Positions 4,006 to 20,067 of a stretch of DNA of 21,480 nt are shown here, piece by piece. Within the stretch, counting starts at the first letter, position 1, and each line of letters begins with the position of its first letter. This DNA comes from a virus, in IMG/VR virus record IMGVR_UViG_3300027771_001286, positions 1-21,480 of that record; one strand, given 5' to 3'. The position numbers and the translations under genes are program-made. Under the pieces are notes generated by a model, which was not told where the DNA came from, did no database searches, and worked only from the letters and a program-made list of their open reading frames with translations.

Positions 4006-4127
4006 AACCCACTCTTTCTTAGCTTATCTTCCATTAGTTCATCTGGTATCTTTTCTTTTACCGTAATGTCTTTCTCTACAGTAAACACATCAGGAAGTCC
4101 AGTGCTATTATTACGTTCCCCAGGCAT
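4002..4127 (-). CDS. Putative 41-residue mini-gene after queE
   Basis: An ORF of 41 codons starts within the last 17 bases of queE (MPGERNNSTGLPDVF) and ends in a TGA that overlaps the GTG of the histidine phosphatase gene (GTGA). It is charged (DITVKEKIPDELMEDKLRK) and fills an otherwise empty gap of 105 bases exactly, which fits the dense operon. No clear RBS is visible, so translation would depend on coupling with queE. The function is unknown, and the gene call is tentative. Confidence 0.5.
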   Translation of the reverse strand: MPGERNNSTGLPDVFTVEKDITVKEKIPDELMEDKLRKSGL

Positions 4128-4977
4128 TGCCGAAAACGTCGACATGAAGCCGGGGGGAGTAACGATAGCCTTTTTTAAGTGCCAGTTCTGCGACATCTTT
4201 TCCGTTTTTAAAATAACTTTCTGACGTGCCTCCGACAGCCATGAGGTATACCGGCGCTTGGACTCCATTGGATCCAAATACTGACACAGCCTTGTCAACT
4301 TCATCCACGTCCACAGTATCACATACCACAAACTTGAAATACAATTGACTATTAGGAATATCGCTGTAACTACGAGCAATGTCAGGCTTAATAGCGTCAT
4401 CCCAATCATGTCCACTAACCGATAATTTAGGGGAACATGACCATGTAACATGTATTCGCTGTGAATTTGTGAGATAAGATTTGAAATCGTTGTGCAGAGT
4501 TTGTGTGGTATTTGTTTCAAATGTAACATTTTTTAAGTCCTTCATACGAGGGTGTTCAAATAGTTCTGTATACATACGTTGCCATCCTAACAATGGCTCC
4601 CCTCCAGTAACTACTAAATGGATATCCTGACCATTCTCCTGTGTCCAACGTCCGTCTGGAGTTAAACTTAGTAAATGTTCTACTAGTCCGTCTACGTCTG
4701 TGTTATTTTGAAACTTCTTAAACGCAGGATGCCACGCTGCATAACTATCACATCCTGTTGTTGCTAGTGGGAGATCATCCAGTTTCTTATACTTTTCTGG
4801 ATTTTCCATAACTTCAGCAGCAATTTCATCTGGCTCATTGGTCTCTTGACCGCGCGGCAGTCCAAACCCAGGACACGTAAAGTTACATCCGTACATGCGA
4901 AGGAAAACACTGGGAACACCAGTAAATCTTCCTTCGCCTTGTACACTATAAAATGCTTCAGTGTATCTAATTTTCAT
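4111..4977 (-). CDS. queE: QueE, 7-carboxy-7-deazaguanine synthase (radical SAM)
   Basis: QueE rearranges 6-carboxytetrahydropterin to 7-carboxy-7-deazaguanine (CDG), the first 7-deazapurine in the queuosine pathway. The 288-residue protein has the N-terminal EAFYSVQGEGRFTGVPSVFLR substrate segment, cluster cysteines C31 and C35 (GCNFTCPG), a probable third ligand C76 (TTGCDSYA) after a long insertion, and the SAM-binding TGGEPLLGW at 124-132. Cellular QueE enzymes have a compact CxxxCxxC; the roughly 40-residue insertion matches phage QueE proteins from memory. It lies two genes after queD and works with FolE (12679-13365) and the DpdA homologue (14427-15893). The ATG has a GAGG-like RBS and starts ten bases after the preceding stop. 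Confidence 0.92.
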   Translation of the reverse strand: MKIRYTEAFYSVQGEGRFTGVPSVFLRMYGCNFTCPGFGLPRGQETNEPDEIAAEVMENPEKYKKLDDLPLATTGCDSYAAWHPAFKKFQNNTDVDGLVEHLLSLTPDGRWTQENGQDIHLVVTGGEPLLGWQRMYTELFEHPRMKDLKNVTFETNTTQTLHNDFKSYLTNSQRIHVTWSCSPKLSVSGHDWDDAIKPDIARSYSDIPNSQLYFKFVVCDTVDVDEVDKAVSVFGSNGVQAPVYLMAVGGTSESYFKNGKDVAELALKKGYRYSPRLHVDVFGNAWGT

Positions 4978-4986
4978 TGATGCCTC

Positions 4987-5244
4987 TTATTTTAATTTAG
5001 ATTTAAGATCTTTAATCATGTTTGGCTTGGTCATACGACGATCCAGTTCAACTCCTAGATCACGGCCATGCTCTTCAATCTTAGCTTTAGTCATTTTTGC
5101 TATATCTTTAGCAATCTTTACTTTTGCTTTTGCTTTTGCAGCTTTTTCTACAATAGCATCTGAAGCACCACTAGCAATAGCATCTAACGTGTCACTTGCA
5201 ACTTGAGGTGTTCTAGTAATCATATTCCATAGTTTATTAAACAT
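4987..5244 (-). CDS. Small Ala/Lys-rich helical protein between queD and queE
   Basis: This 85-residue protein starts MFNKLWNMITRT. GGAG lies six bases before this ATG, and the start overlaps the end of queD, so I prefer it to an ATG 30 bases upstream. The centre (residues 18-55) is a long Ala/Lys/Ile-rich amphipathic helix (EKAAKAKAKVKIAKDIAK), followed by a charged C-terminal part (GRDLGVELDRRM). It has no cysteines or signal peptide. The position between queD and queE suggests a link with deazaguanine synthesis, but I do not recognise it and it may be an unrelated small phage protein. Confidence 0.7.
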   Translation of the reverse strand: MFNKLWNMITRTPQVASDTLDAIASGASDAIVEKAAKAKAKVKIAKDIAKMTKAKIEEHGRDLGVELDRRMTKPNMIKDLKSKLK

Positions 5245-5710
5245 CATATTCTCCATCTTCTCTGTGACCAACACGCATTGCCATGTTGGCGTCTGTCTCT
5301 CTTACCTCTACTCTGGAACACCAAACACGAGTGCCTGGCTCATATGCTGGAAGAAAGATAGTGTTTATATATTCGTATAAGAAGTCAGATAAGCCTTCGC
5401 AACCTGATTTTTCAACTTCTGTAATCTTAGCAAGACCCTTCTTGCCAAGTTCTAGTAGTGTTTCGCGCTCTGGATCATCTTGGGCTACCAGTAGCGTATG
5501 GTCGAACCAATCTTCGAGATTGTCTTTTAGTGGACGCAATCCACCAAAATCAATAACCCAGTTTCGTGCATCTAAATCATCTGTTTCAAATTCAAAATGG
5601 AAACTTAAAGCGTATCCATGAATTAAGTTACAGTGACTATCTGCCCTCCACTGTCGATAACAGACTGGGCCTAGTTGTTTGTATGTTTTTGTGCTAATAT
5701 ATTTTGCCAT
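5237..5710 (-). CDS. queD: QueD, 6-carboxytetrahydropterin synthase
   Basis: QueD turns 7,8-dihydroneopterin triphosphate, the FolE product, into 6-carboxytetrahydropterin, the QueE substrate. The 157-residue protein has the T-fold motifs: WRADSHCNLIHGY (21-33), with H26 and H31 as zinc ligands and C27 as the catalytic cysteine spaced as in E. coli QueD; WVIDFGGLRPL (51-61); FDHTLL with D70-H71; and the C-terminal EVRET. The third zinc ligand of the usual HGH is Tyr33 here. I remember this HGY form from a proteobacterial and phage subgroup, so it is probably active. A strong RBS (AAGGAG) precedes the ATG, and a 102-base leader lies upstream, so this gene heads the queD-queE operon. Confidence 0.9.
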   Translation of the reverse strand: MAKYISTKTYKQLGPVCYRQWRADSHCNLIHGYALSFHFEFETDDLDARNWVIDFGGLRPLKDNLEDWFDHTLLVAQDDPERETLLELGKKGLAKITEVEKSGCEGLSDFLYEYINTIFLPAYEPGTRVWCSRVEVRETDANMAMRVGHREDGEYDV

Positions 5711-6379: not shown

Positions 6380-6838
6380 TTACCACCACTCTTCCCAGGG
6401 GAAAACAATCCAACTAGGATCTTCTGATTTGTCAATCTCTGTGCCAATGTAACTCATGCTTACATTGCACTCACTGGCTAAGTTATCCATTAGTACTGCA
6501 AATCTAACGTTTGTTGCATTGTTAACATCCCAGTCGTCCATGATCCAGTTAAATGTAGCACCAGTGTCGTTAATGTCGTCTAATACAAGAATGTTTTTTC
6601 CTGCTTGGGCATCATCTGCCATCCATAGATTCGATTCTTTTTCATCACCGTCGCGAAGTCTAACATCCAGTGTGTGCATCTTAATGCCAGTGAATTGGCT
6701 TAACATTACTGATGGAGTAAGTCCGCCTCGTGTGATGCCTACAATGTAATCAGGCCGCCAGTTGTCTTTGTATAGTTGTGATACGATAGTAGAAACATAT
6801 TTTTGTATATCAGTATTAGTTAAGTAAATCTTATTCAT
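6380..6838 (-). CDS. Phosphoribosyltransferase (purine salvage type)
   Basis: This 152-residue type I phosphoribosyltransferase has the hood strand DYIVGITRGGLTPSVMLS (30-47) and the PRPP-binding loop ILVLDDINDTGAT (83-95). It ends in WIVFPWEEWW, a tail typical of xanthine/hypoxanthine-type enzymes. It would transfer ribose-5-phosphate from PRPP to a purine base. In a phage that modifies guanine, salvage of guanine or xanthine is a sensible job, but activity on a deazapurine is only a guess. No clear Shine-Dalgarno sequence is seen before the ATG. It is followed after three bases by the GTG-started oxygenase gene. Confidence 0.85.
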   Translation of the reverse strand: MNKIYLTNTDIQKYVSTIVSQLYKDNWRPDYIVGITRGGLTPSVMLSQFTGIKMHTLDVRLRDGDEKESNLWMADDAQAGKNILVLDDINDTGATFNWIMDDWDVNNATNVRFAVLMDNLASECNVSMSYIGTEIDKSEDPSWIVFPWEEWW

Positions 6839-7322: not shown

Positions 7323-10300
7323 TTAGTAAGTCCAGTTAAGTTTAACACCAGCTGACCGCTGATTGTTTCCGTCTGTGCCGGCAACGTTTACACGCATTTC
7401 ACCAAACGCTGCCATCGAAAACCTTTGATCCACTTTGTAGTTTAAGAACAAACCAAAGTCATGTTCTAGAACCTGTGTGCTTGCGTCTGCACTCCCGGAA
7501 TCAAACTGCACTGCTCCGTCTACCGAACGTCCAGTAGGCACTTTGTAGTTCATACTACCACTCATTACGTGTAGTGGCTGACTATAAGTACCGCCCACTG
7601 TCCATCCTGCCGCTGGCTTAAAACCTAAGCCAGTGTTAAAGCTCTGACTAATTAAGCTACTGAATCCAGTAACTAGACTAAAGTCTTTGCTTGTTTCCAC
7701 ATCAGTAGTACCAATCTGGTAGTTACCAAATCCAAACACTTGGTCACTAAATTTATGACTAATGTTTAAACTTGCATACTGAGTTGTGTGATTTTCGCCA
7801 ACACCCATAAATCCTTCTTGGACGTTATTAAGAAACTTACCTGTTTCTTTAAGAAATCCTAATCCAAGATTAAGACTAGTTTCTTCATCTTCAAAGGCCT
7901 TATAGTTAGCGTTCAATGTATAGTCGCCTCCTGCGTTACTATTCATTTTCATGCTTGTGGAGAAACCCATGTATTCAGGAGTAGCGATGTTTTGGTTAGT
8001 ACCAGCAAGATTGCTATACGCATCGTATTTACCGCCACCAAATGCCAGTCCTTCAACATAACTTCCTGGACGGGTATCTACTGCCTGTGTCTGACTAAGA
8101 TCAACTGTAAAGTCTCTCTCAAACTCATCAAGCACTATAGCATTACTTAGTGCGGCAAATGCCCCTGGGTTAATATTACCAATTGCAGCACCGCCACTTA
8201 GGCTAGAGATACTACCGTCAGTACGCCCGCTTGTTGGGATACCAGTTGCGCCTACAGGCTGTGTTGCTTTATCTAGATCCAACAATCCTGAACCGTGTGT
8301 GTTAACATGATAACCAGCAATCGTCTTATCAGCAGTCTTAGTAACCAACTGAACAAGATTTTCGCCCTTCATGTGAGGCCACATTTGGTTTAGGATAGCA
8401 AGTGATCCAGCAACTACTGGAGTAGACATACTAGTACCAGTCATTATCTCGTTACCGCCACTTTTACTAGCACTTTCCAAAGCACTTCCTGGAGCAAGAA
8501 TGTAGAAGTCTGAAGTACTTTTTGCATCAGTACAAGAACCACTAACATAACTAGCACACATATGTCCTGCTTTGTTGCCAAGAATCTGTTTACTATCAAG
8601 ATTCCAGTTACCAACGATTAACATACGGCCGCCTAAAATAAGATTGCCGTCTGTGTCAGTAGCAGTAGCCATCTGTCCAGTGCCAGGAACATAATCGTAA
8701 CCATGATTACCTGCGCTGTTAACAAACACTTGCTCTGTACCCAGTGCCGTTGCGTATGAAGGAGCTTCGTCTGTTACTCCATTGTAACCATGCTTACTAT
8801 AAAAGTGATGACTACTATGGTACTTACCATCGCCATCATCTACAATACTAGATCTAAATGCACTATCAGTATTGTAGTTTGCACTAACACTAATTGCAAC
8901 TGCACCTAAGTCACGAGACCATGCCATGGCTTTTTTTGCACGACCAAAACTAAATGCAACCCCTTCAGAAATCTTAGCAACCGCAACATCAGCATCAAAC
9001 GCAACACCGTGTGTTCCAGTACCATTCTTACGACCAGCTGCAAGTCCAAGAACATGACTACCATGTCCATTACTATCGTTCATACTAGCATCTCCGTTGC
9101 CAGTAGTCTTAACATCAGTTAGTGTATTGTAGGTATACTTAACTGCACTGGATAAGTCATTATGATCTACATCATATCCAGTATCAGCAATAGTAATTAA
9201 ACTACCCTTGCCAGTCCAACCGCGACTGTAAGCATACTCTGCTTTAATGGCTGACTTATAGTTTTGACCATTATTTGAGCCATTAAACTCTGATGTGCGG
9301 TAGCTAGCTGGATCCGAATTAAAACCTGCTGTACGTGTACCTAGGTCAGCATGATCATTACCAACTGGAGTTACTGGTGCGGCTTCTTCAACAGCTTCTA
9401 CTGTTACTGAATTCTCACTCATAACCTTGGACCACATATCATTTACTACAGTATTTTCAGTAGCAACAGTTGTTACAGTATCACCACGAATCAACTCTAC
9501 ACGGTCATCTGTCCATGTCTGCTTAGTAACCGGAGTAGTCTTAGTAGTTGTAGTGGTTACAATAGTTGCTGTTGTAGTGTAATTACGTGTTATTGTCGTA
9601 GTCTTAACTGTGCCAACAGTATTGTCAGACGTAACATCATCATGCTCAGTAACAAACACTGGGTCTGCTTCTGTAACTGTAGTAATTACTTCGTTAGTAA
9701 TAACTTCATTAGCAACAATGTGCTCAGTAGACGAAGTATGTAATACTTCATTATCTGTAACTACTACATCATCCACAACTACTACATCCACTTGATCAGT
9801 AGCATCATCTGTAAACGTATGACCATCTGAATAAGTGTAAACAGTAACCTTAGGATAGGTAGTTGTAGTAGTAACAGGAGTAGTTGTTGTTGTGTTAGTG
9901 TTACGGAACGTCTTGTGCAAAATACTTGTATCGCTTTGCACTTCTTCTATTAAGCGATCAGTATATACATTCTCTACCGTGTCTGCTCCGCGAGTAACTA
10001 CTATCGTAGGTGTATTCTGAACATCAGTAGTAAACGTAATATTTTTACTCATCTCTTCAGAGGACACTTGTGCCTTAGCATCAAACGTTTGCTTGTTTTC
10101 AACACTACGTATAGCACCTTTATCTGTTTTCATAGTGCCATCACTAAAGACAGTAGTAGTAACGTTCTGTACCTTAAGGGTAAATGTACGATCATACTCC
10201 ATGTTCTTTGTAGTAGTTTTCGTCCATGTTGCAGTACGTGTTGTGTTACCAACACTATCACCACCAGTAAGAGTTTGCTCACCATTTGCAATGTCAGTTG

Positions 10301-10889
10301 TCTTGACACGCTCTGCTGAGTTAGTCGTTGCTGATGTTTCTACAGTTACAGAGCTAGTAGATGCACTGATAACAGTTGGAGTAGCGCCGTCAAAAATAGC
10401 TGCCTTCTTCTCCGTAATTTTACGGTCCAACGTTTCCTTCTTTGCGAGGAATTCAAAATCTTTTGTATCATAGCTGCCACCGTTGACAACTTTAGTAACT
10501 ACGGGCCGTAGATCTTCTTTGAGAATCTTAACAACAGCCTCAGCTTCTCTCCACTCTGCGGTGGATAATTTAACTGCAAGTAGTGTTGGGTTCATGCTGG
10601 ATTTATAATCGTCCCAGCTTTTAATAACGTTATCGATCTGAGAAACAACATTACCTGCCATTTTCACATCGTTTTCGTTAGGGTTAATTAGCGCACTGAT
10701 ACTAGCACTACTCTGTGCTACTGCAACCACTTTCTCCAATTCGGAGACTTGGCTACTGATAGCAGCAAAGGCACTATTCGTTGTCAATGCACTAGTAGCA
10801 CTTCTAACAGCATTTACACTATCGCCTGGATTACAAGCGGTAAGTGCAGTTGTTGCCATTAGAAGTCCAAGAGTGCTTCTAAGTTTCAT
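7323..10889 (-). CDS. Lipoprotein subtilisin (S8) with autotransporter barrel
   Basis: This 1188-residue protein has a lipoprotein signal peptide (LTAC, lipidated C19), then a helical segment (about 40-165) and a very Thr/Val-rich stretch (about 175-500). The subtilisin domain follows (about 555-875) with D569 (ITIADTGYD), H609 (NGHGSHV), oxyanion N728 (NSAGNHG) and S820 (TGTSMSTP). The C-terminal 220-260 residues are alternating amphipathic strands ending in LNWTY, with a terminal aromatic residue as in outer-membrane barrels. It should be secreted to the cell surface and act as a protease there or release itself. NalP and SphB1 are known lipidated subtilisin autotransporters. It has its own strong promoter and is uncommon phage cargo. 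Confidence 0.9.
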   Translation of the reverse strand: MKLRSTLGLLMATTALTACNPGDSVNAVRSATSALTTNSAFAAISSQVSELEKVVAVAQSSASISALINPNENDVKMAGNVVSQIDNVIKSWDDYKSSMNPTLLAVKLSTAEWREAEAVVKILKEDLRPVVTKVVNGGSYDTKDFEFLAKKETLDRKITEKKAAIFDGATPTVISASTSSVTVETSATTNSAERVKTTDIANGEQTLTGGDSVGNTTRTATWTKTTTKNMEYDRTFTLKVQNVTTTVFSDGTMKTDKGAIRSVENKQTFDAKAQVSSEEMSKNITFTTDVQNTPTIVVTRGADTVENVYTDRLIEEVQSDTSILHKTFRNTNTTTTTPVTTTTTYPKVTVYTYSDGHTFTDDATDQVDVVVVDDVVVTDNEVLHTSSTEHIVANEVITNEVITTVTEADPVFVTEHDDVTSDNTVGTVKTTTITRNYTTTATIVTTTTTKTTPVTKQTWTDDRVELIRGDTVTTVATENTVVNDMWSKVMSENSVTVEAVEEAAPVTPVGNDHADLGTRTAGFNSDPASYRTSEFNGSNNGQNYKSAIKAEYAYSRGWTGKGSLITIADTGYDVDHNDLSSAVKYTYNTLTDVKTTGNGDASMNDSNGHGSHVLGLAAGRKNGTGTHGVAFDADVAVAKISEGVAFSFGRAKKAMAWSRDLGAVAISVSANYNTDSAFRSSIVDDGDGKYHSSHHFYSKHGYNGVTDEAPSYATALGTEQVFVNSAGNHGYDYVPGTGQMATATDTDGNLILGGRMLIVGNWNLDSKQILGNKAGHMCASYVSGSCTDAKSTSDFYILAPGSALESASKSGGNEIMTGTSMSTPVVAGSLAILNQMWPHMKGENLVQLVTKTADKTIAGYHVNTHGSGLLDLDKATQPVGATGIPTSGRTDGSISSLSGGAAIGNINPGAFAALSNAIVLDEFERDFTVDLSQTQAVDTRPGSYVEGLAFGGGKYDAYSNLAGTNQNIATPEYMGFSTSMKMNSNAGGDYTLNANYKAFEDEETSLNLGLGFLKETGKFLNNVQEGFMGVGENHTTQYASLNISHKFSDQVFGFGNYQIGTTDVETSKDFSLVTGFSSLISQSFNTGLGFKPAAGWTVGGTYSQPLHVMSGSMNYKVPTGRSVDGAVQFDSGSADASTQVLEHDFGLFLNYKVDQRFSMAAFGEMRVNVAGTDGNNQRSAGVKLNWTY

Positions 10890-10998: not shown

Positions 10999-11286
10999 TT
11001 ATTTTTTGTTAAGTAGATCCCATGCTACATAATGTTTCTGGAGATCTTTAAATTCTTCCCATTTAGCCTGTAACTCAGGGTGTTCCCCACATAATTCAAT
11101 GTCTATATAGTAACTATTTTCCCTAACAGCCTTCATGATTGGGTCTGACTTGTCAAATCTAGATGGGGTTGGCTTAATCTGCACCCTATTTTCATGTGAG
11201 TCACCAAAATCTTTTGCGAACACTGTTAGGCCACCATCCGGAGATTCGTAAATTTTTGGGTTTACTTTTGCTGTAAAATTTGCCAT
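10999..11286 (-). CDS. Small hypothetical protein
   Basis: This 95-residue protein begins MANFTAKVNPKIYES. This start, four codons inside the longest reading, has GGAAAG six bases upstream. The first half is beta-like (GGLTVFAKDFGDSHENRVQI), the second half helical and charged with several aromatics (WEEFKDLQKHYVAWDLL). It has a single cysteine and no signal peptide. It overlaps the upstream HAD gene by 25 bases and ends just before the 109-base promoter region, so it closes the folE-cytochrome-phosphomannomutase operon. I do not recognise it. Confidence 0.65.
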   Translation of the reverse strand: MANFTAKVNPKIYESPDGGLTVFAKDFGDSHENRVQIKPTPSRFDKSDPIMKAVRENSYYIDIELCGEHPELQAKWEEFKDLQKHYVAWDLLNKK

Positions 11287-11948
11287 GTTTCTTTCCAATC
11301 TTTAACGTGTGATACTTTACAGTTGCGTCTATTTTTAAGTCTGCTTGCAATGCTGTGGTCATTGCCTCCTGGCTCGCAACGGTCACCAAAAAAGTGTATG
11401 TCTTGTCCACGGAAGTATTTTAATGATTGTGATTTGTCATAGCCTTTAGGGTAGACATCAATTCCTGTTTCTCCCCCAACACCAGCAGTTAACTCAGGGA
11501 ACAAAGTCCTAATCGTAACACAAAGTCTGTGTCGTTCGCCAGAAATATTATCCCAGTTAAAGTAATCTGTTCTTTGATTGCCAACTGCATTCCTGCCCAC
11601 TATGCTAAAATTAAGTGACCCTGGCCTTACTTCTATATGATTCCCATACGCATGTTTGTATTCACTGTCTGCTAAACATTTGTTAAGTACATCTACCAAT
11701 TTATCGCTGGGTGTCCAGTTGTTTCTTGTTAAACTTACTCCGTTACGGTAAACATCACTACCACTACAATTAAAACAGTAACGTGCTTGATCAAATACAT
11801 CCTGCCCTAATTGTTCAACAGTTTTATCCACATCACTTCCAGTAATTAAACTAAAGTCAGGAAGTGTCTTAAAGAATTTTTTAAAGTCTGGGTCCATTAA
11901 TCCCCTGCTGGGGGTTAGTGTACCATCCACATCGAATAACAGTATCAA
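11262..11948 (-). CDS. Phosphomannomutase-like HAD protein (eukaryotic PMM type)
   Basis: This 228-residue protein carries the eukaryotic-type phosphomannomutase pattern of HAD IIB enzymes: catalytic D6 and D8 in FDVDGTLTPSR, the cap substrate site VRPGSLNFSIVGR (R108, N113, R119), GGETGIDVYPKGYDK (158-172) and the metal site HFFGDRCEPGGND (185-197). PMM converts mannose-6-phosphate to mannose-1-phosphate on the way to GDP-mannose; some relatives are sugar phosphatases. The length is near that of PMM (about 245). The start is TTG, right after the cytochrome stop, with GGAAAA upstream and DxDGT at the normal position. It fits the sugar genes at 16.5-19.1 kb and could feed the glycosyltransferase. 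Confidence 0.85.
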   Translation of the reverse strand: MILLFDVDGTLTPSRGLMDPDFKKFFKTLPDFSLITGSDVDKTVEQLGQDVFDQARYCFNCSGSDVYRNGVSLTRNNWTPSDKLVDVLNKCLADSEYKHAYGNHIEVRPGSLNFSIVGRNAVGNQRTDYFNWDNISGERHRLCVTIRTLFPELTAGVGGETGIDVYPKGYDKSQSLKYFRGQDIHFFGDRCEPGGNDHSIASRLKNRRNCKVSHVKDWKETWQILQQK

Positions 11949-12380
11949 TTACTTTTCCACTTCTGGTTGCATGGATTTTAGATATACAATGGTTGCGGCA
12001 CGTTTCTTTTCTTTTTTCTCACGGAACCCCATTTTCGTACCTTTAACTAATTTTTTACTCTTAGTAAGCCATTGGTCCATTAACTCAACAGTCCATACAG
12101 GATTCTCTTCTGCCCATGCTCTAAACTTCTTACTATACTTGTAGTCTTTATTTTGAGCAGTGCCGCGGTTAAAGACATCCCAGAGGTTTGGGCCCATCTT
12201 GTTTTTGCCATCTTCGTTAATGGTGTGGCAGGATACACACTTTTTAAATGATTTTTTATCTATTGGTATTAACCTAACCTCTGCCCACGATGGCGTAACT
12301 ATTAACGCTGTTATTACTAGTACCCATAGTATAACCTGTGTTGCTATTATTGCTGGTGTTGATAGTAAATTTTTTAACAT
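11949..12380 (-). CDS. Periplasmic c-type cytochrome (class I)
   Basis: This 143-residue protein has a long hydrophobic N-terminal signal or anchor (about 10-32, with SWA-E as a possible cleavage site). The haem-attachment CVSCH is at 48-52 (C48, C51, H52) and the axial methionine is M117 (VKGTKMGF). GPNLWDVFNRG, the YSKKF segment and the C-terminal AATIVYLKSM helix match mitochondrial c/c2-type cytochromes. It would carry electrons in the periplasm after haem attachment by the host maturation system. The ATG follows the preceding TAA directly. A full-length cytochrome c in a phage operon is unusual. It has all key residues, so it looks functional rather than decayed. Confidence 0.9.
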   Translation of the reverse strand: MLKNLLSTPAIIATQVILWVLVITALIVTPSWAEVRLIPIDKKSFKKCVSCHTINEDGKNKMGPNLWDVFNRGTAQNKDYKYSKKFRAWAEENPVWTVELMDQWLTKSKKLVKGTKMGFREKKEKKRAATIVYLKSMQPEVEK

Positions 12381-12678: not shown

Positions 12679-13365
12679 CTACTTACATACAAATCCTTGC
12701 TGAAGTTTAATGTTGTCCATAAACTCTTTCTTACAACCAGGATCGTTATGGAAACTACCACGCAAGATAGTTGTTTGTGTTAAACTGCTAGTGGCCATAA
12801 TGCCGCGGTTCTCACAACATCCATGAGTTGCGTGTATATAGACACCAACGTTATTACTGCCTGTAGCTTGTTGAATCTCATTGGCAATAACCATGTTAAG
12901 TTCTTCTTGCAACGTTCCACGTCTAGCACACCATTGTGCAATTCTTGTGTATTTACTTAGGCCAATAAGTGTATCAGCAGCAATAATGCCAATGTATGCA
13001 ACTCCACTTACAGGCTGATGGTGGTGTGAACAGATACTTTTTATCTCACTGCGAACTACTAACATGCCATCATAACTATCAGTAGTGTTAGGAAATGCAG
13101 TGGCCTTAGGACGTGGTGTATATCTACCACTCATAGTCTCATTAATATACATCTTGGCAAGACGTCTACCAGTGTCCATGCTGTTTGGATCATTCTCTTT
13201 ATCGATTACCAAACTGTCTAGTACTGCTTCAAACTTTGGAGTAAGCTCTTCAATAAGTAGATCTGTCTCACCATCAAGTATAAACTCGCTAATATTGTCA
13301 CCAGCCCAGTAACGAGCGCCGGACTTTTGTATTCGTTCTTTAATAACTTCGGAAGTCTTTGTCAT
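12679..13365 (-). CDS. folE: FolE, GTP cyclohydrolase I
   Basis: FolE converts GTP to 7,8-dihydroneopterin triphosphate, the first step shared by folate and 7-deazaguanine synthesis. The 228-residue protein has zinc ligands C112 and H115 (ICSHHHQPVSG) and C183 (THGCCENRG), plus the T-fold core GLSKYTRIAQWCARRGTLQEEL (135-156) and VGVYIHATHG. The length is normal (about 220). The N-terminal 50 residues are less conserved. RBS AGGAAC lies about nine bases before the ATG. With QueD, QueE and the DpdA homologue in the same window, a role in making a modified guanine for phage DNA is far more likely than folate supply. Confidence 0.93.
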   Translation of the reverse strand: MTKTSEVIKERIQKSGARYWAGDNISEFILDGETDLLIEELTPKFEAVLDSLVIDKENDPNSMDTGRRLAKMYINETMSGRYTPRPKATAFPNTTDSYDGMLVVRSEIKSICSHHHQPVSGVAYIGIIAADTLIGLSKYTRIAQWCARRGTLQEELNMVIANEIQQATGSNNVGVYIHATHGCCENRGIMATSSLTQTTILRGSFHNDPGCKKEFMDNIKLQQGFVCK

Positions 13366-13368
13366 ATA

Positions 13369-14430
13369 CTATGTTCCTAATAAAGTGTTAATCATAGTAC
13401 TACTTGATAGGTAGTCTTTGATTAGTATTTGTTGCTGTTGTTTAATTAAATCTTGATAGTCAGCAAAGTTATCAAGGCGTGTGTTAATAAATTCTACTAG
13501 TTGATCTCTGTGATGGATAAACTGTTCGTAGTTTTCTGTCCATTCTCTTGGATACTTAAACTCTGGTAAGTACATCTCTGCATAACTGCAACGGTCAGGC
13601 ACGATGGGAACGGCCCCTGTAAGTACTGCTTCCATTACACTAATACCTAAATTTTCATGTAATGCACAACTAAAGATAGCTTTACTAGTACCCATTTTAG
13701 CATAGTAATCAGCTTTATCCAAATTCATTTTCTGTGTGATTACCACATCAAAATCGTTTAATAAGTTTTCAGCAATCTCAGGCTGTTTGTCGTCGTTGTA
13801 ACGATGCGGCCACATAACAGTGTTTTGTTTATCTGTGCTTTGATACTGTGTTAGCGAGTCAACAATAAGCTCATGTGGTTGTCCACTACGGATTGCTTTG
13901 TGATGATATTCTTCTGGAATGTTTAAGTTCTTTAAAAACATGCTTCTGTGGCTCTCACTAGCATAATAGTTGTAATCACTACTATGGAACCAACTAGTCT
14001 CAACATGACTAGGCCAGGGCTTTTGCATCTTATAACCCAATATATCACTGGGATCATAAGCACCAGCATGCCAAATACTATGGATCTCTACTGGAATCTC
14101 CAGTAAGTCACTCATGTATTTGATAGGCGTAATAATAAAGTTCCATGCATCAGTAATTAGGAACTTATCACCGGCTTTAATTCTGCCATGACTAAACCAA
14201 CGACTTACTTGTTCAGTTTGCGATGCCTTGTAAACATTAGTTGCCCCAAAGTCTAAAAACGCACCTGAGCTAGTCTTATCTTCAATTCCAGCACCGTATA
14301 CAGTGACCACTTCATAGTCCAGATTTTGCTGGGCAATATTCTTTTGTAGCATTTTAGGAATATTATCATACCATTGTCTTGTGTAACGCTGATCAATAGG
14401 TTCAATAGGGATAATGTAAATGGTGTTCAT
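13369..14430 (-). CDS. GT-B glycosyltransferase coupled to the DpdA homologue
   Basis: This 353-residue protein looks like a GT4-type GT-B glycosyltransferase. The C-terminal half has VMWPHRYNDDKQPE (205-218) and the sugar-nucleotide site FSCALHENLGISVMEAVLTGAVPIVP (253-278), with E259 and E267 as the usual acidic pair. The N-terminal half (acceptor domain) is less clear, with WHAGAYDPSDI around 120-130. The arrangement WxHRxxxDKxPE and ALHExxGxxxxEAVxxGxxPxxP recalls, from memory, the queuosine mannosyltransferase QTMAN (GTDC1). Its ATG overlaps the DpdA stop as ATGA, so the two are probably made together. A role in glycosylating deazaguanine is inference; it could instead modify surface glycans. 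Confidence 0.78.
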   Translation of the reverse strand: MNTIYIIPIEPIDQRYTRQWYDNIPKMLQKNIAQQNLDYEVVTVYGAGIEDKTSSGAFLDFGATNVYKASQTEQVSRWFSHGRIKAGDKFLITDAWNFIITPIKYMSDLLEIPVEIHSIWHAGAYDPSDILGYKMQKPWPSHVETSWFHSSDYNYYASESHRSMFLKNLNIPEEYHHKAIRSGQPHELIVDSLTQYQSTDKQNTVMWPHRYNDDKQPEIAENLLNDFDVVITQKMNLDKADYYAKMGTSKAIFSCALHENLGISVMEAVLTGAVPIVPDRCSYAEMYLPEFKYPREWTENYEQFIHHRDQLVEFINTRLDNFADYQDLIKQQQQILIKDYLSSSTMINTLLGT

Positions 14431-15893
14431 CGTTCATCGTCCTCTTCCTGTGTGCTATCAATGTCAGTATTAACCGGAGTTGCATCACCAAAACTAAACA
14501 AACTATCAAAAGTGTCACTGTTCTTGAGGTTTTTCTTACGGCTTAGTTTCGCAATTAACTTCTCGTGCTTTAGTAGTTCAGCATCAATAGCCGCCATGCT
14601 ACCGCCATAGTCTTTCTCAAACAAACTTTCGCATACTTGACTAAACTCGATATACTGACTTGGAACCCAGGGATTGATACCATGTGTGCGTGTCATTAAC
14701 CTGTTTGCCATCTGTACACTGTCAATGTGTTTGTAGATATTATGTCCCATCATTAAACAATAAGCAAAACTATCCCAGCTTGTTTTACCTTCTTTACCAA
14801 TCTTATTTAGGTCGCCGGGATCATACCAGTTAATATCTTTCCATGTTAAACGCTCACCAATTGGACTATCATCCCAGGGCCAAGGAGCATCTTTACCTTG
14901 TGGGTCCTTTTCATCCACCATGTGTACCATGTTGTAGCCGATACGTTTTTCATCAAAGGTGTTGTGTGTGTAAACCTGTCCATTAGCAGTTGCAATAAAC
15001 GGGCTAGCACAATCCATACTAATAGTAAGATTAGGATTAACATGCTTTCTAATAGCACGTTGCATAGCAGTATACATAACTCCTTGATCTAATCTACCTG
15101 TGCCCAAGAAGTGTATCCACTCTGAGTTTTCTAGGATCTTTAGTTCCTTTAGATAAAGTAATCGACGTAGACTGTGGTTAACCATTGTTTTCTGGATACC
15201 ACCAAATGCCCAGCCACTTGTTTCACCAACTACTGGCAAACATACCTTATCAAACCAATCGTCTGCTTGTGCGTATGTACTACCCTGGCAGACATTTAAG
15301 AACTTCGTCTTACCCTGGCGATGGTTAAAGAAATAGTTGTTATTAGCAATAGTTGCGTCTCTAAACTCGCCATAATCATTAAGTCCACACTTGGGCTTGC
15401 CAGTTACTTCATCAACAAAGTTTAATCCGTTAGTAGGAATATCTAGTACCATACTATAGTCTGCTGTATTCTCTAACCAGTTTAATACTTTGCCGCGAGT
15501 CTTATCCGTTTCAGTACATTCCCCTTCTGGCTCAAGCCAATTGCCTGACCAAACACCCTTGCTAATTTGAAAGCCGCCACTGTCGCCAATTAATGTAGTA
15601 AAGTTCTTGTCGCGGCCATGGATCATGCCTTCCTTGGCTGGTGCTTTGTTCATGTCTAGTTCAGCATGCCCTGCACTATACAATACATGATCATATGTAA
15701 AGTAACCTGCTTCTGGATTTAAGAAGTTTAGCCCTTCAAGACCGTTTTCAAACTTAGCTGGAACTCGGGATGGTTCTACGTGATTAGGATTAACTTGTTG
15801 CTTGCTGACATAACTGCTATAAAACCCGCTTAGTGCTGGAGTAAAGACAGCGTAGTCATGATTCTTCTTACTTAGATCTATCTTGTTTGTCAT
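14427..15893 (-). CDS. dpdA: DpdA-like 7-deazaguanine DNA transglycosylase
   Basis: This 488-residue protein is a tRNA-guanine-transglycosylase homologue of the DNA-modifying DpdA kind, which exchanges guanine in DNA for a 7-deazaguanine base. The two catalytic aspartates are in place: D104 in GDSGGFQISKG and the nucleophile D294 in ISMDCASPF. MVLDIPTNG (148-156), VCQGSTYAQA (201-210), GWAFGGIQ (227-234) and HFLGTGRLDQG (261-271) match TGT core positions. The zinc-binding CxCxxC of tRNA enzymes is absent, and the length exceeds bacterial Tgt (about 375), as in phage DpdA. The last 30 residues are acidic and flexible. It follows a near-consensus promoter and is coupled to the glycosyltransferase by ATGA. 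Which base it inserts cannot be read from the sequence. Confidence 0.88.
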   Translation of the reverse strand: MTNKIDLSKKNHDYAVFTPALSGFYSSYVSKQQVNPNHVEPSRVPAKFENGLEGLNFLNPEAGYFTYDHVLYSAGHAELDMNKAPAKEGMIHGRDKNFTTLIGDSGGFQISKGVWSGNWLEPEGECTETDKTRGKVLNWLENTADYSMVLDIPTNGLNFVDEVTGKPKCGLNDYGEFRDATIANNNYFFNHRQGKTKFLNVCQGSTYAQADDWFDKVCLPVVGETSGWAFGGIQKTMVNHSLRRLLYLKELKILENSEWIHFLGTGRLDQGVMYTAMQRAIRKHVNPNLTISMDCASPFIATANGQVYTHNTFDEKRIGYNMVHMVDEKDPQGKDAPWPWDDSPIGERLTWKDINWYDPGDLNKIGKEGKTSWDSFAYCLMMGHNIYKHIDSVQMANRLMTRTHGINPWVPSQYIEFSQVCESLFEKDYGGSMAAIDAELLKHEKLIAKLSRKKNLKNSDTFDSLFSFGDATPVNTDIDSTQEEDDER

Positions 15894-15923: not shown

Positions 15924-15952
15924 ATTATATGATTATTTAGACGATTAGTCAA
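15924..15952 (-). promoter_or_regulatory. Near-consensus sigma70 promoter upstream of dpdA
   Basis: On the minus strand TTGACT (15947-15952), a 17-base spacer and TATAAT (15924-15929) match consensus at 11 of 12 bases with ideal spacing. The -35 overlaps the stop region of the aminotransferase gene. The leader to the dpdA ATG would be about 25 bases. CTAAATA (15934-15940) lies in the spacer and resembles late-promoter elements described for T4-like cyanophages, so the site could also be read late. It would make dpdA, the glycosyltransferase and folE early genes. Confidence 0.75.
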
Positions 15953-16550
15953 CATTAATATTGATCTTGCTAACATCAGGATATGTCTTTAATTGTGATT
16001 TCTTGTTGGGCAATTCATCCAAATGTTGCATCATATCAATGCCTTTCGCAGCATCTTCTAGTCGCATGTTGTAATGGTAACCAATAAACCAACTTTTTTG
16101 GCTTTGCCAAGGCGAATGTTCGTTAACTATACGGCCATCATACGCCATTGGTTTAAGAGAAAAGTAGTCTCCTCTTTTATCGAGTAGTATAGCACCGCCG
16201 TGGCCAATAGCCAAACGTTTGTCCCAACCAAAGCTCACACATTGCTGGCGGCCTGGTACGTACATGTCTTTGTCAAACGCTCTTGCACTATCCCAGATAT
16301 TAGTAGGAGCAATTCGATACTCATAATCCCAATTAACTTCTTTATCCCAATATATGCTAAGTCCTAACTTATGCATAGTCATTGGTATACTAATATAAGT
16401 TTGGTGTGGCAGTATAATTGGTCCTTTATATTTTTGATGTCTTAAACATAACTCTATAGCATGCGTACAACTATCTGTTAGTACAACATACGGCGCACCA
16501 GTATATTTGCTTATCATTGCTTCAAATTTGTCTAATACGTCAAAATTCAT
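15945..16550 (-). CDS. Half-size DegT/DnrJ/EryC1/StrS aminotransferase-like protein
   Basis: This 201-residue protein has the PLP-fold core of the DegT family, which aminates nucleotide-linked keto-sugars: LTDSCTHAIEL (24-34), the LPHQTYISIP segment, IWDSARAF with D87, the PLP-lysine region SFGWDKRLAIGHGG with K111, and YNMRLEDAAKGIDMM (160-174). Family members are usually 360-400 residues; the C-terminal small domain is missing, and the next gene starts 50 bases on. Either it is a functional minimal form, as I recall from other phages, or a truncated relic. The open frame, operon position and ATGA overlap with the upstream oxygenase favour a maintained gene. Confidence 0.8.
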   Translation of the reverse strand: MNFDVLDKFEAMISKYTGAPYVVLTDSCTHAIELCLRHQKYKGPIILPHQTYISIPMTMHKLGLSIYWDKEVNWDYEYRIAPTNIWDSARAFDKDMYVPGRQQCVSFGWDKRLAIGHGGAILLDKRGDYFSLKPMAYDGRIVNEHSPWQSQKSWFIGYHYNMRLEDAAKGIDMMQHLDELPNKKSQLKTYPDVSKININVD

Positions 16551-17074
16551 CTTAGATGTCCTGTTATTTGTAATGTGTAACGATCTTCTAAACCAATATT
16601 AGCTGCCATGTGCTTAACGTCGCCGAACCACCAAACATAGTCGCCTGCTTTCCAATGAGTAACTGGGTTGCCACTAATCTCAAAATAGTGACCACTCTGC
16701 CAATCTTCTAAGAATACAACTACCCGTTTAATGTTGTGTAGTTCGCATCTAAACATCTCTCTGTATCTTGTGTATATATCGCCATGCATTGGGAGAATAA
16801 CTCCGGTACCCATACGATAATAACTTGTTCCAATATCATATACATTGTATTTCTTATAGAACCAAGAAACAATTTCGTCATTCCATGTAGGTTGTAGGCC
16901 ACGCATGTCACACATTGCACCAGTGTAGTGGCTATCTGGGTGAACGTATCCTTGATCTTTCCATAGTTTTAAATCATCTGGGTTGTTAAACTTTTCCTGA
17001 ATATAGTCTAATCCGATATACTCATTGTCCCAGAACGGCTCCATACGACCTAGACCCCATTTATCAGTGATCAC
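16547..17074 (-). CDS. 2OG-Fe(II)/cupin-type oxygenase, Asp-hydroxylase-like
   Basis: This 175-residue protein shows a jelly-roll oxygenase pattern: YRMGTGVILPMHGDIY gives an HxD pair (H97, D99), and GDYVWWFGDVKHMAANIG gives distal H155, followed by EDRYTLQITGH with R165 as the likely 2OG anchor. IKRVVVFLEDW (115-125) and HYFEISG form the strands between. This resembles the aspartyl/asparaginyl hydroxylase group and small phage 2OG enzymes. The start is uncertain: the GTG chosen overlaps the dehydrogenase by 11 bases and has a GGAAA site, but M11 (MEPFWDNEY) is an alternative. It lies between sugar genes, so hydroxylation of a sugar or base is possible but unproven. Confidence 0.72.
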   Translation of the reverse strand: MITDKWGLGRMEPFWDNEYIGLDYIQEKFNNPDDLKLWKDQGYVHPDSHYTGAMCDMRGLQPTWNDEIVSWFYKKYNVYDIGTSYYRMGTGVILPMHGDIYTRYREMFRCELHNIKRVVVFLEDWQSGHYFEISGNPVTHWKAGDYVWWFGDVKHMAANIGLEDRYTLQITGHLR

Positions 17075-18317
17075 GAGTATTTCCGTAATGTATTACTTTA
17101 ACGTAATCACTGTTTTTAGGAAATTGTCTCCATGGATCAACAATGACACATTCTGGATCTAACTCACAATATAATCCACTAACGGTTTTTTGTTGTGAAT
17201 ATGGATAATACTTGTAAGTTGTATTAGCACTATGGGCTAATAGTACAACTGCTTGGAATGGACCAGGATCAGGATGGGTAAATGGATCAACTAGGATTGG
17301 TGGTCTTCCAGCTTCGTTAAGGTAATGTGCTACTAGTAAACTATAACTTCCGTCTACGTATTCTACTCCTGGCTTATATGCTACCCCGTGAATCAATAAA
17401 GGCAAGTCATATTTCTCTGCTTGCTCTAGTAGAAACTTAGCCATATTCTTTGCTTGTTTTTCTCTAGCAGTCATAATGCTATCAAACAAATCGTACCCTA
17501 GATCTAATTCTTGTGCCATCCAGCGTAGTGCAATATTATCTCTTGGATGGCATGCTCCGCCATCGCCCATCCCTGCTGTCATATACTGTGGACCCATAAT
17601 ACGTTGTGTACTACGGGCAAGTGCATCAGTGACTATGTCAACATCCATGTGTCCAATTTTTAATGCAACGTCTTGAATCATATTAACTAGGCTTAGTTTA
17701 GCACTAATAAATGTATTATAGAATATCTTAATACTCTCAGCTTCTTCATATGTACCTACTACACACCTTGGATGATTTTGCATAATGCTTCCATAGAACT
17801 TAGTTAATACCTCAACATCATCAGATGGTTTAACCGGATGGCTGTATCCAAGTCCAGTTTCTGTTCCGATAATAATCATCTCAGGATTAACCATGTCCCA
17901 CGCAACACTTCCCATAGCAATTAAGTATGGATTGTATACAAACCTTGCTTGTGTAATAATAGGTGCAAGTTCTCTGCGCACTGTGCCAGGCAGTACAGTA
18001 CTAATTAATACAACAAGAGTATTTTTGTCTGCATAATCATTTACTTCTGCTAACACCTGTTTTACGGGATCGTAGTCAAAATCTTTGTTTGGCAAGTGTG
18101 AAGTGGGCTTACTGCCATCGTAATCAGGATGATGAGGCGTTGGAACTGCCACAAAGACAATGTCTTTATCTCTGGTTGCTAATTCTAAATCAGTAACAAT
18201 ATTAATCTTAGTACTAGTTCGGTCATATATATCGTATCCAGATACTTCGTGCTGGTCTGCCATTGCTTCGGCACAAGGTAATCCTAGTTTTCCTAAACCA
18301 ATAAATCCTATCTTCAT
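17064..18317 (-). CDS. UDP-glucose/GDP-mannose 6-dehydrogenase family protein
   Basis: This 417-residue protein is an NAD-dependent four-electron sugar-nucleotide dehydrogenase, oxidising a UDP- or GDP-sugar to the uronic acid. Motifs: NAD-binding GFIGLGKLGLP (4-14), VAVPTP (57-61), VLISTVLPGTV (103-113), NPYLIAMGSVAWDM (129-142), the central helix ESIKIFYNTFISAKLSLVNM with K197 and K207, and catalytic C256 in GDGGACHPRD (251-260). The length fits the family (about 390-450). The Asn-Glu usually seen in the central helix is Asn-Met (212-213). RBS AAGGATAA precedes the ATG. It belongs with the epimerase and aminotransferase in a sugar-nucleotide operon. The exact substrate cannot be told. Confidence 0.9.
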   Translation of the reverse strand: MKIGFIGLGKLGLPCAEAMADQHEVSGYDIYDRTSTKINIVTDLELATRDKDIVFVAVPTPHHPDYDGSKPTSHLPNKDFDYDPVKQVLAEVNDYADKNTLVVLISTVLPGTVRRELAPIITQARFVYNPYLIAMGSVAWDMVNPEMIIIGTETGLGYSHPVKPSDDVEVLTKFYGSIMQNHPRCVVGTYEEAESIKIFYNTFISAKLSLVNMIQDVALKIGHMDVDIVTDALARSTQRIMGPQYMTAGMGDGGACHPRDNIALRWMAQELDLGYDLFDSIMTAREKQAKNMAKFLLEQAEKYDLPLLIHGVAYKPGVEYVDGSYSLLVAHYLNEAGRPPILVDPFTHPDPGPFQAVVLLAHSANTTYKYYPYSQQKTVSGLYCELDPECVIVDPWRQFPKNSDYVKVIHYGNTRDH

Positions 18318-18321
18318 TAAA

Positions 18322-19146
18322 TTATCCTTGAATAAGCTGATCTATTCCTGCAAATACATCAATGCTGGGTTTATACCCCAGTTCTAATTTCGCTTTGTCT
18401 ACACACATCGTTCCACGTTTGGGGTAATCCATGTCTGCTAATTCCACTTTAACTGTGCCACTGCCAACTTTCTCGCAGATATACTTGGCGACATTTTCTA
18501 AATGGACTGCATTGCCGTAACTAATATTGTACACTCTGTTTTCAGTGGAAGACATTCCTAGTATAATACCAGCAACAACGTCATCAACGTGTGTAAAATC
18601 AAGTTGATTGCTATGGCCTTTTACTGTGAGTGTTTCGTTGTTACGTGCTCTTTCGATAAAGAAAGGCATTACTCTTCTGGGGTCATCGTTTGCCCCATAC
18701 ACTGCCGTGGGCCTAATAATAGTCCAATAGTCGTGTAGTTCACGGACAATACCTTCGCCTGCTAGTTTAAGTTGCCCGTACAGGTCAATAGGAGCCTTGG
18801 CACTATATTCATGGACGCTATCACTATCCCAATTACCATAAACCATGCTACTGCTGATGTATGTAAAATGTGCCTGTGGATAGTTAATTAGACTATTCAT
18901 TAGACCGCTTGTCATAGTTTTAATGGCTTCTTTTGGGTTTTGTTTAACAGCCTTAAGATTAGCCTCTGCCGCTAAAAATACAACATGACTAAAGTTAACG
19001 TCAGTGATAAAACTGTACTCATTGTTAATATCTCTATTAGACTTTTTGTCTACGACACTTACAAAATGCCCTTGATCGGTTAATTTTTGTTTAAGATGTG
19101 TGCCGATGAATCCATCGCCACCAATAAGCAATACTTTTTTGGTCAT
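18322..19146 (-). CDS. NAD-dependent sugar epimerase/dehydratase (extended SDR)
   Basis: This 274-residue protein is an extended short-chain dehydrogenase of the UDP-glucose epimerase/dehydratase type. The NAD site is VLLIGGDGFIGTHL (5-18), the catalytic region is YISSSMVYG (96-104) with YGQLK giving Y123 and K127, and IIRPTAVYG and LDFTHVDDVVAGI are the usual later motifs. It is a little shorter than typical GalE (about 330). It would epimerise or dehydrate a nucleotide sugar, upstream of the dehydrogenase in the same operon. The start overlaps the previous stop as ATGA. No GalE-specific residue lets me choose between 4-epimerase and reductase. Confidence 0.87.
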   Translation of the reverse strand: MTKKVLLIGGDGFIGTHLKQKLTDQGHFVSVVDKKSNRDINNEYSFITDVNFSHVVFLAAEANLKAVKQNPKEAIKTMTSGLMNSLINYPQAHFTYISSSMVYGNWDSDSVHEYSAKAPIDLYGQLKLAGEGIVRELHDYWTIIRPTAVYGANDDPRRVMPFFIERARNNETLTVKGHSNQLDFTHVDDVVAGIILGMSSTENRVYNISYGNAVHLENVAKYICEKVGSGTVKVELADMDYPKRGTMCVDKAKLELGYKPSIDVFAGIDQLIQG

Positions 19147-19620: not shown

Positions 19621-20067
19621 TTACATGTCTTTCATGTATTGGGTTAACGAGCCGTTCTCGCCATCTTCACTTACATCAATAATAACGTCCCGGCTCGGAT
19701 AACGTTCATTAATTTGTAAATATAGATCATCGCTGATCATTTCACAGCTTTTAAAATCTAGTGCAAGTATACCACTATCCGCATACAGGGACTCAAGCCA
19801 ACGTTTAAATTGGATAAACTCAATGTCACGATCGTCGTGGAATACTTCTATTGATACCTTAAATTTAAAAATATGTCTATGAACATAACCTAAAAAACTT
19901 ACATCATATTCATCGCCAGTTGCTAAACGAGGATCGTCTAACGCTGCCGGGTATTTATGCAGGCCTTCTTTCTGAAATGTAACCCAAATCATTTTCTTTG
20001 CTTTTAACATTTTAGTTTTAAGTGCCTCTTCTCGCATCTTGTCTAGTATAAATTCATCATGTCCCAT
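19621..20067 (-). CDS. Conserved T-fold (PTPS/QueD-like) phage protein without the catalytic Cys
   Basis: This 148-residue protein is conserved in T4-like phages, from memory, and seems to share the PTPS/QueD fold. H37, H63 and H65 (GLHKYPAA, then YVHRHIFKFKVSIEV) are spaced like the zinc ligands H23, H48 and H50 of mammalian PTPS. IEFIQFKRWLESL (82-94) fits the strand-helix after them, SCEMISDDLYLQI (107-119) fits the PTxE helix with E109, and DVIIDVSEDGENGS the C-terminal strand with its Glu. No cysteine sits before the HxH pair as in QueD. It may bind a pterin, act in the deazaguanine pathway, or have lost catalysis. The homology is inferred from motif spacing alone. Confidence 0.7.
   Translation of the reverse strand: MGHDEFILDKMREEALKTKMLKAKKMIWVTFQKEGLHKYPAALDDPRLATGDEYDVSFLGYVHRHIFKFKVSIEVFHDDRDIEFIQFKRWLESLYADSGILALDFKSCEMISDDLYLQINERYPSRDVIIDVSEDGENGSLTQYMKDM

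Follow-up and report, generated by a model that had tools for sequence, protein, structure and literature searches.

The window analysed here is a 21,480-base fragment of a virus record (IMG/VR IMGVR_UViG_3300027771_001286) that carries all genes of interest on its minus strand. A homologue of the DNA-guanine transglycosylase DpdA, 488 aa in length (14427-15893), and a GT-B/GT4-type glycosyltransferase of 353 aa (GT; 13369-14430) are joined by an ATGA overlap, which an earlier sequence-only reading of this DNA had described with correct coordinates. Only 3 nt separate the GT stop from the start of FolE, a GTP cyclohydrolase I (12679-13365; Pfam PF01227, E 1e-36). Ahead of dpdA, on the same strand, lies a promoter-like site, TTGACT-17 nt-TATAAT (15952-15924), which agrees with the consensus at 11 of 12 positions and ranks best of 11 such sites in 4.2 kb. 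Because such sites are no more frequent than in shuffled sequence (11 observed against a mean of 13.8 per shuffle), the near-consensus promoter that dpdA and GT had been said to share is plausible, not proven.

The same strand encodes further enzymes of base and sugar metabolism. Downstream of FolE lies a phosphomannomutase of the eukaryotic PMM type (11262-11948; PF03332, E 3e-30), rightly placed in the operon by the sequence-only reading and matched in sequence to characterised phosphomannomutases of the PDB at E 1e-34 to 7e-22. FolE and the phosphomannomutase are separated in the operon by a cytochrome c gene (11949-12380); in close relatives the two are adjacent, and no cytochrome c gene was seen between them. 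Beyond these follow a subtilase (S8) protein of 1188 aa with an autotransporter-like C-terminus, which is kept in relatives (7323-10889), a phosphoribosyltransferase (6380-6838; PF00156, E 1e-13), a QueD-like 6-carboxytetrahydropterin synthase (5237-5710; PF01242, E 2e-14; phrog_2389, E 8e-41), and a QueE-like radical SAM 7-carboxy-7-deazaguanine synthase (4111-4977; phrog_2076, E 2e-50; TIGR04322, E 9e-12). On the other side of dpdA are a compact DegT-type sugar aminotransferase (15945-16550; PF01041, E 1.4e-13 in two stretches), an NDP-sugar dehydrogenase (17064-18317; PF03721, E 1e-17; PF00984, E 4e-17), an NDP-sugar epimerase/dehydratase (18322-19146; PF01370, E 1.5e-27), and a conserved QueD-like protein, probably of the T-fold (19621-20067). 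The aminotransferase is only 201 aa long, a shortness common to its relatives, and keeps the SFGWDKRL motif.

DpdA and GT are poorly recognised by Pfam, PHROGs, and NCBIfam; DpdA has no Pfam or PHROG match, and PDB sequence-profile searches with GT, DpdA, and the conserved QueD-like protein gave no real relatives. An AlphaFold model of DpdA built from 25 sequences (pLDDT 86) has a TIM-barrel fold of the tRNA-guanine transglycosylase (TGT) type. The top eight PDB matches of the model are tRNA-guanine transglycosylases without exception (E 3e-7 to 9e-6), followed by a clear drop to an unrelated ninth (E 2e-3). The TGT-type catalytic and base-binding residues D104-SGG-x-Q109, D151, Q203-G204, and D294 are invariant in the 25 members, and together with the fold they support the proposed DpdA identity of the 488-aa protein.

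The glycosyltransferase was modelled from 26 sequences (pLDDT 87.9) and has a GT-B/GT4 fold, with 159 PDB matches at E<=0.001, of which the best 50 are all glycosyltransferases of that kind; the matches include BshA, MshA, PimA, and glycogen synthase. The closest viral structure is gp124 of phage ACP17 (TM 0.83, E 5e-27), followed by a second at E 3e-18, and from the third onward the viral matches are generic glycosyltransferases at E 5e-9 or weaker. Both motifs previously pointed out in the protein, WxHRxxxDKxPE and ALHExxGxxxxEAVxxGxxPxxP, are present as WPHRYNDDKQPE at residues 207-218 and ALHENLGISVMEAVLTGAVPIVP at residues 256-278. Residues W207, P208, H209, R210, D214, K215, H258, E259, G262, E267, P275, and P278 are invariant in 26 members, so that the EX7E pair (E259/E267) and the Arg/Lys donor-phosphate site (R210/K215) are intact throughout. 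Fold and motifs thus uphold the assignment of the 353-aa protein as a GT-B glycosyltransferase.

The motifs appear to resemble the C-terminal motifs of QTMAN/GTDC1, the tRNA-queuosine mannosyltransferase, and GT had been likened to that enzyme. Membership of the QTMAN/GTDC1 family is not supported by the one defining feature examined. The QTMAN_N domain (PF12038) is absent from all 26 GT members even at E<=10 and from the six frames of the window, and the predicted structure of the 353-aa protein, while bearing out a GT4-type fold, matches generic GT4 enzymes. A search of viral contigs for the QTMAN motif pattern gave no match. The QTMAN Pfam model matched no genome of an archaeal set, controls included, so that only the 26-member scan is informative. 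GT shares with QTMAN/GTDC1 a GT-B fold and a tie to 7-deazaguanine; it differs in being without QTMAN_N, apparently viral-only, and linked to DpdA rather than TGT.

In a scan of 84,980 cellular genomes the GT family was found once, on the phage-like contig L132, which was assigned to a Nitrosarchaeum MAG and on which GT is accompanied by FolE, QueD, a DpdA, and the QueD-like protein, while a plasmid search returned GT4 matches at chance level, none of them close. By these searches GT looks like a distinct viral family. A divergent GT clade with the N-terminus MRKLFYMGLEPYEGRYT, often beside an epimerase, occupies the same position in L137, L139, L150, L169, L186, L203, and L221 (6656-7822). 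In Xanthomonas phage PhiXhv-15 a stretch (L135:3669-7755) groups a related glycosyltransferase with Gfo/Idh, a PIG-L deacetylase, and a gene resembling glucosamine-6-phosphate synthase, and no DpdA was seen near it.

Two IMG/VR scans for GT, one for DpdA, and phage records yielded 125 GT loci, 99 at 90% identity. Among 37 GT-selected, non-redundant, well-flanked loci, DpdA lies within 10 kb in 36, as does the QueD-like protein; the exception for DpdA is phage Phosso, in which dpdA is elsewhere in the genome and GT stands by folE and queE. Reciprocally, all 39 loci that were selected by DpdA and extend 5 kb or more downstream contain GT, and all 97 GT-DpdA pairs lie on one strand. The linkage holds across unrelated phages, from the PA5oct type, ACP17, and X1 to contigs from the environment and the phage-like L132 of an archaeal MAG: in phage collections GT adjoins dpdA in PA5oct-type phages of Pseudomonas, gp123 and gp124 of Acidovorax phage ACP17 overlap by four bases, and in Xanthomonas phage X1 the neighbour of GT bears the annotation queuine tRNA-ribosyltransferase. 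This conservation points to a strong functional linkage, and GT is a near-obligate partner of the QueC-less DpdA system. In other phages the two genes stay linked but are mostly not in contact. Only about 8/97 pairs touch, with a median gap of 1.5 kb, and translational coupling of dpdA and GT is a local variant, a feature of a clade, not a general one. An uncharacterised family of about 173 aa (FTGYEVEHT...GM.TLFVVG; for example L171:13317-13838) occurs in 31/73 clusters, mostly between dpdA and GT.

The GT family pairs with two DpdA types, that of the window and that of ACP17, X1, and L132, which align across the catalytic region (hhalign E 9e-6). The second type hits precisely YP_008125322, the protein of Vibrio phage nt-1 that is DpdA2 in Hutinet 2019, and the DNA of that phage carries dPreQ0 (PMC6884629). 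Because one GT family pairs with the window type and the DpdA2 type of a phage with modified DNA, the pairing argues for DNA over tRNA as the target; the putative action of the window-type DpdA on DNA is drawn indirectly, through this analogy. Another GT-like gene lies ahead of the DpdA2 of Synechococcus phage BUCT-ZZ01.

The base is addressed by FolE, QueD, and QueE. No QueC match over cut-off was obtained in 28 records, which include complete PA5oct, ACP17, and Phosso and the fragmentary window, while 12/14 control genomes were positive; weak QueC matches fell below the cut-off. QueF likewise gave no match over cut-off in the 28 records, three whole phage genomes among them, with positive controls. 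Two weak QueF matches, one of which by its coordinates lies inside FolE, a homologous fold, were also below the cut-off and were discarded. PP-loop proteins occur near GT in a few relatives. Since QueC and QueF were not found over cut-off, the base probably derives from 7-carboxy-7-deazaguanine (CDG) or a derivative of it, unless the host supplies QueC.

The conserved QueD-like protein is present in 67/73 well-flanked GT loci, with H37, H63, H65, S107, C108, and E109 invariant. Its histidines resemble the QueD zinc site, and its C-terminal part is in register with phage QueD (hhalign E 2.5e-4, at only 43% probability), so that a T-fold is likely, though unproven. The protein also occurs in some deazaguanine phages in which no GT was found nearby (Cellulophaga phiST and Rhizobium RHph_I1_18 among them), which suggests a candidate enzyme for tailoring the base rather than a role in sugar transfer. 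Work by Cui in 2023 reportedly found CDG and 7-deazaguanine in other phages and named a CDG decarboxylase DpdL; that the QueD-like protein is this DpdL is a lead only. The phosphoribosyltransferase, present in 50/73 clusters, possibly salvages or recycles the guanine released by DpdA; the BUCT-ZZ01 cluster (L221) holds an annotated xanthine-guanine phosphoribosyltransferase.

A supply of nucleotide sugar near dpdA and GT, first suggested by the phosphomannomutase of the window, is found more widely: at least one sugar gene lies within 10 kb in 45/73 loci, and none was recognised in 28/73. The phosphomannomutase follows FolE in the window clade. The immediate upstream neighbour of GT encodes, in 28 loci, a fusion of a HIGH-type nucleotidyltransferase with a mannose-6-phosphate-isomerase cupin, or one of the two domains; other loci carry a class I aldolase, pairs of Gfo/Idh and alcohol-dehydrogenase-like genes, DegT aminotransferases, epimerases, or NDP-sugar dehydrogenases. 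In L027 (7243-8001) and its relatives the fusion, whose nucleotidyltransferase is a cytidylyltransferase, stands between dpdA and GT, and we know of no such fusion in cellular sugar pathways. The sugar thus probably differs between phages, and mannose, a reasonable guess for some of them, is one option, because the sugar genes differ between relatives; mannose in every case is not borne out.

From the enzyme families, motifs, conserved linkage, and absence of QueC and QueF matches over cut-off, all computed here, we infer the acceptor, the order of steps, the sugar, and the function. We consider it likely that FolE, QueD, QueE, DpdA, and GT of this locus together give rise to glycosylated 7-deazaguanine in the DNA of the phage. 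FolE, QueD, and QueE would convert GTP to CDG, which would enter the next step as it is or after tailoring, probably by the QueD-like protein (19621-20067), and DpdA would exchange guanine in DNA for the CDG-derived base. The GT4-type enzyme would then move a sugar from a nucleotide-sugar onto the base, most likely after its insertion into DNA, with the phosphomannomutase, NDP-sugar dehydrogenase, epimerase, and DegT aminotransferase feeding or shaping the sugar donor. The bulky glycosylated base may block host nucleases. The sugar-decorated 7-deazaguanine proposed by the sequence-only reading is thus retained as the best account of DpdA, GT, their linkage, and the sugar genes, while the QTMAN route and a universal mannose are dropped. 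Against this account stand the chemistry of C7, where neither CDG nor its decarboxylated form offers an evident hydroxyl or amine as acceptor, and the 28/73 loci in which no sugar gene was recognised within 10 kb. A shared DNA-metabolism region might likewise account for the co-location, though the intervening genes vary strongly.

Glycosylation could instead precede insertion: GT would modify the 7-deazaguanine precursor as a free base or as a nucleotide and leave the product for DpdA to insert. Cluster order is silent on this timing, and the huimycin glycosyltransferase works on a free deazaguanine-derived base (PMC7439116). The order is nevertheless unlikely in the present phages: DpdA/TGT pockets bind small bases, and phage base glucosyltransferases of the T4 type act on DNA. 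Action of the pair on tRNA, with DpdA as a phage enzyme like TGT and GT as a mannosyltransferase akin to QTMAN that together yield a sugar-queuosine analogue, would suit the fold common to DpdA and TGT and the apparent QTMAN likeness of the GT motifs. It is rendered highly improbable by the absence of QTMAN_N, by QueC and QueF not reaching the cut-off, and by the pairing of GT with the DpdA2 type of nt-1, whose DNA is modified (PMC6884629). There is scarcely any chance that GT works on surface or virion glycans (LPS, capsule, or glycoprotein) and has dpdA nearby by accident, since a generic GT4 fold, sugar genes like those of O-antigen cassettes, and the assignment of similar cyanophage cassettes to surface polysaccharide (Iyer 2021, PMC7824862) are set against reciprocal linkage to DpdA in 36/37 and 39/39 loci and a family met once in 84,980 cellular genomes and not closely matched on plasmids.

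The proposed glycosylated 7-deazaguanine in DNA can be compared with several known systems. In phage DNA, sugars are known on pyrimidines. T4, RB69, and their relatives likewise encode a glycosyltransferase for a modified DNA base, but their enzymes act on 5-hydroxymethyl- or 5-hydroxy-pyrimidines, whereas the linked enzymes here point to 7-deazaguanine. With the FolE-QueD-QueE-QueC-DpdA modification of phages 9g, CAjan, and nt-1 (Hutinet 2019, PMC6884629) the present system shares the base enzymes up to QueE as well as DpdA; it differs in that QueC and QueF did not exceed the cut-off in 28 records and in the addition of GT, the QueD-like protein, and sugar genes. The deazaguanine system of PA5oct is noted in PMC7824862, without an associated GT. 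The huimycin pathway also combines FolE, QueD, and QueE homologues with a glycosyltransferase acting on a 7-deazaguanine-derived base, HuiG, which places N-acetylglucosamine on the 2-amino group of the 7-deazapurine, and may serve as a precedent by analogy, although it makes a small-molecule antibiotic, uses a QueC homologue, and has no DpdA (PMC7439116).

No description of a sugar-modified deazaguanine in DNA was found in the searchable literature, and a guanine substitute bearing a sugar would, if confirmed, add a chemically new class to the known DNA modifications. We lean towards a widespread family of phage DNA hypermodification, in which a QueC-independent 7-deazaguanine is decorated by a dedicated GT and the sugar is varied through exchangeable sugar-nucleotide cassettes. 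The gene set is present in the cultured phages PA5oct, Paride, ACP17, Xanthomonas X1, and Phosso. If correct, the preferred reading would explain the product of QueC-less phage deazaguanine pathways, and it bears on how such phages, including Pseudomonas jumbo phages, might evade restriction and CRISPR.
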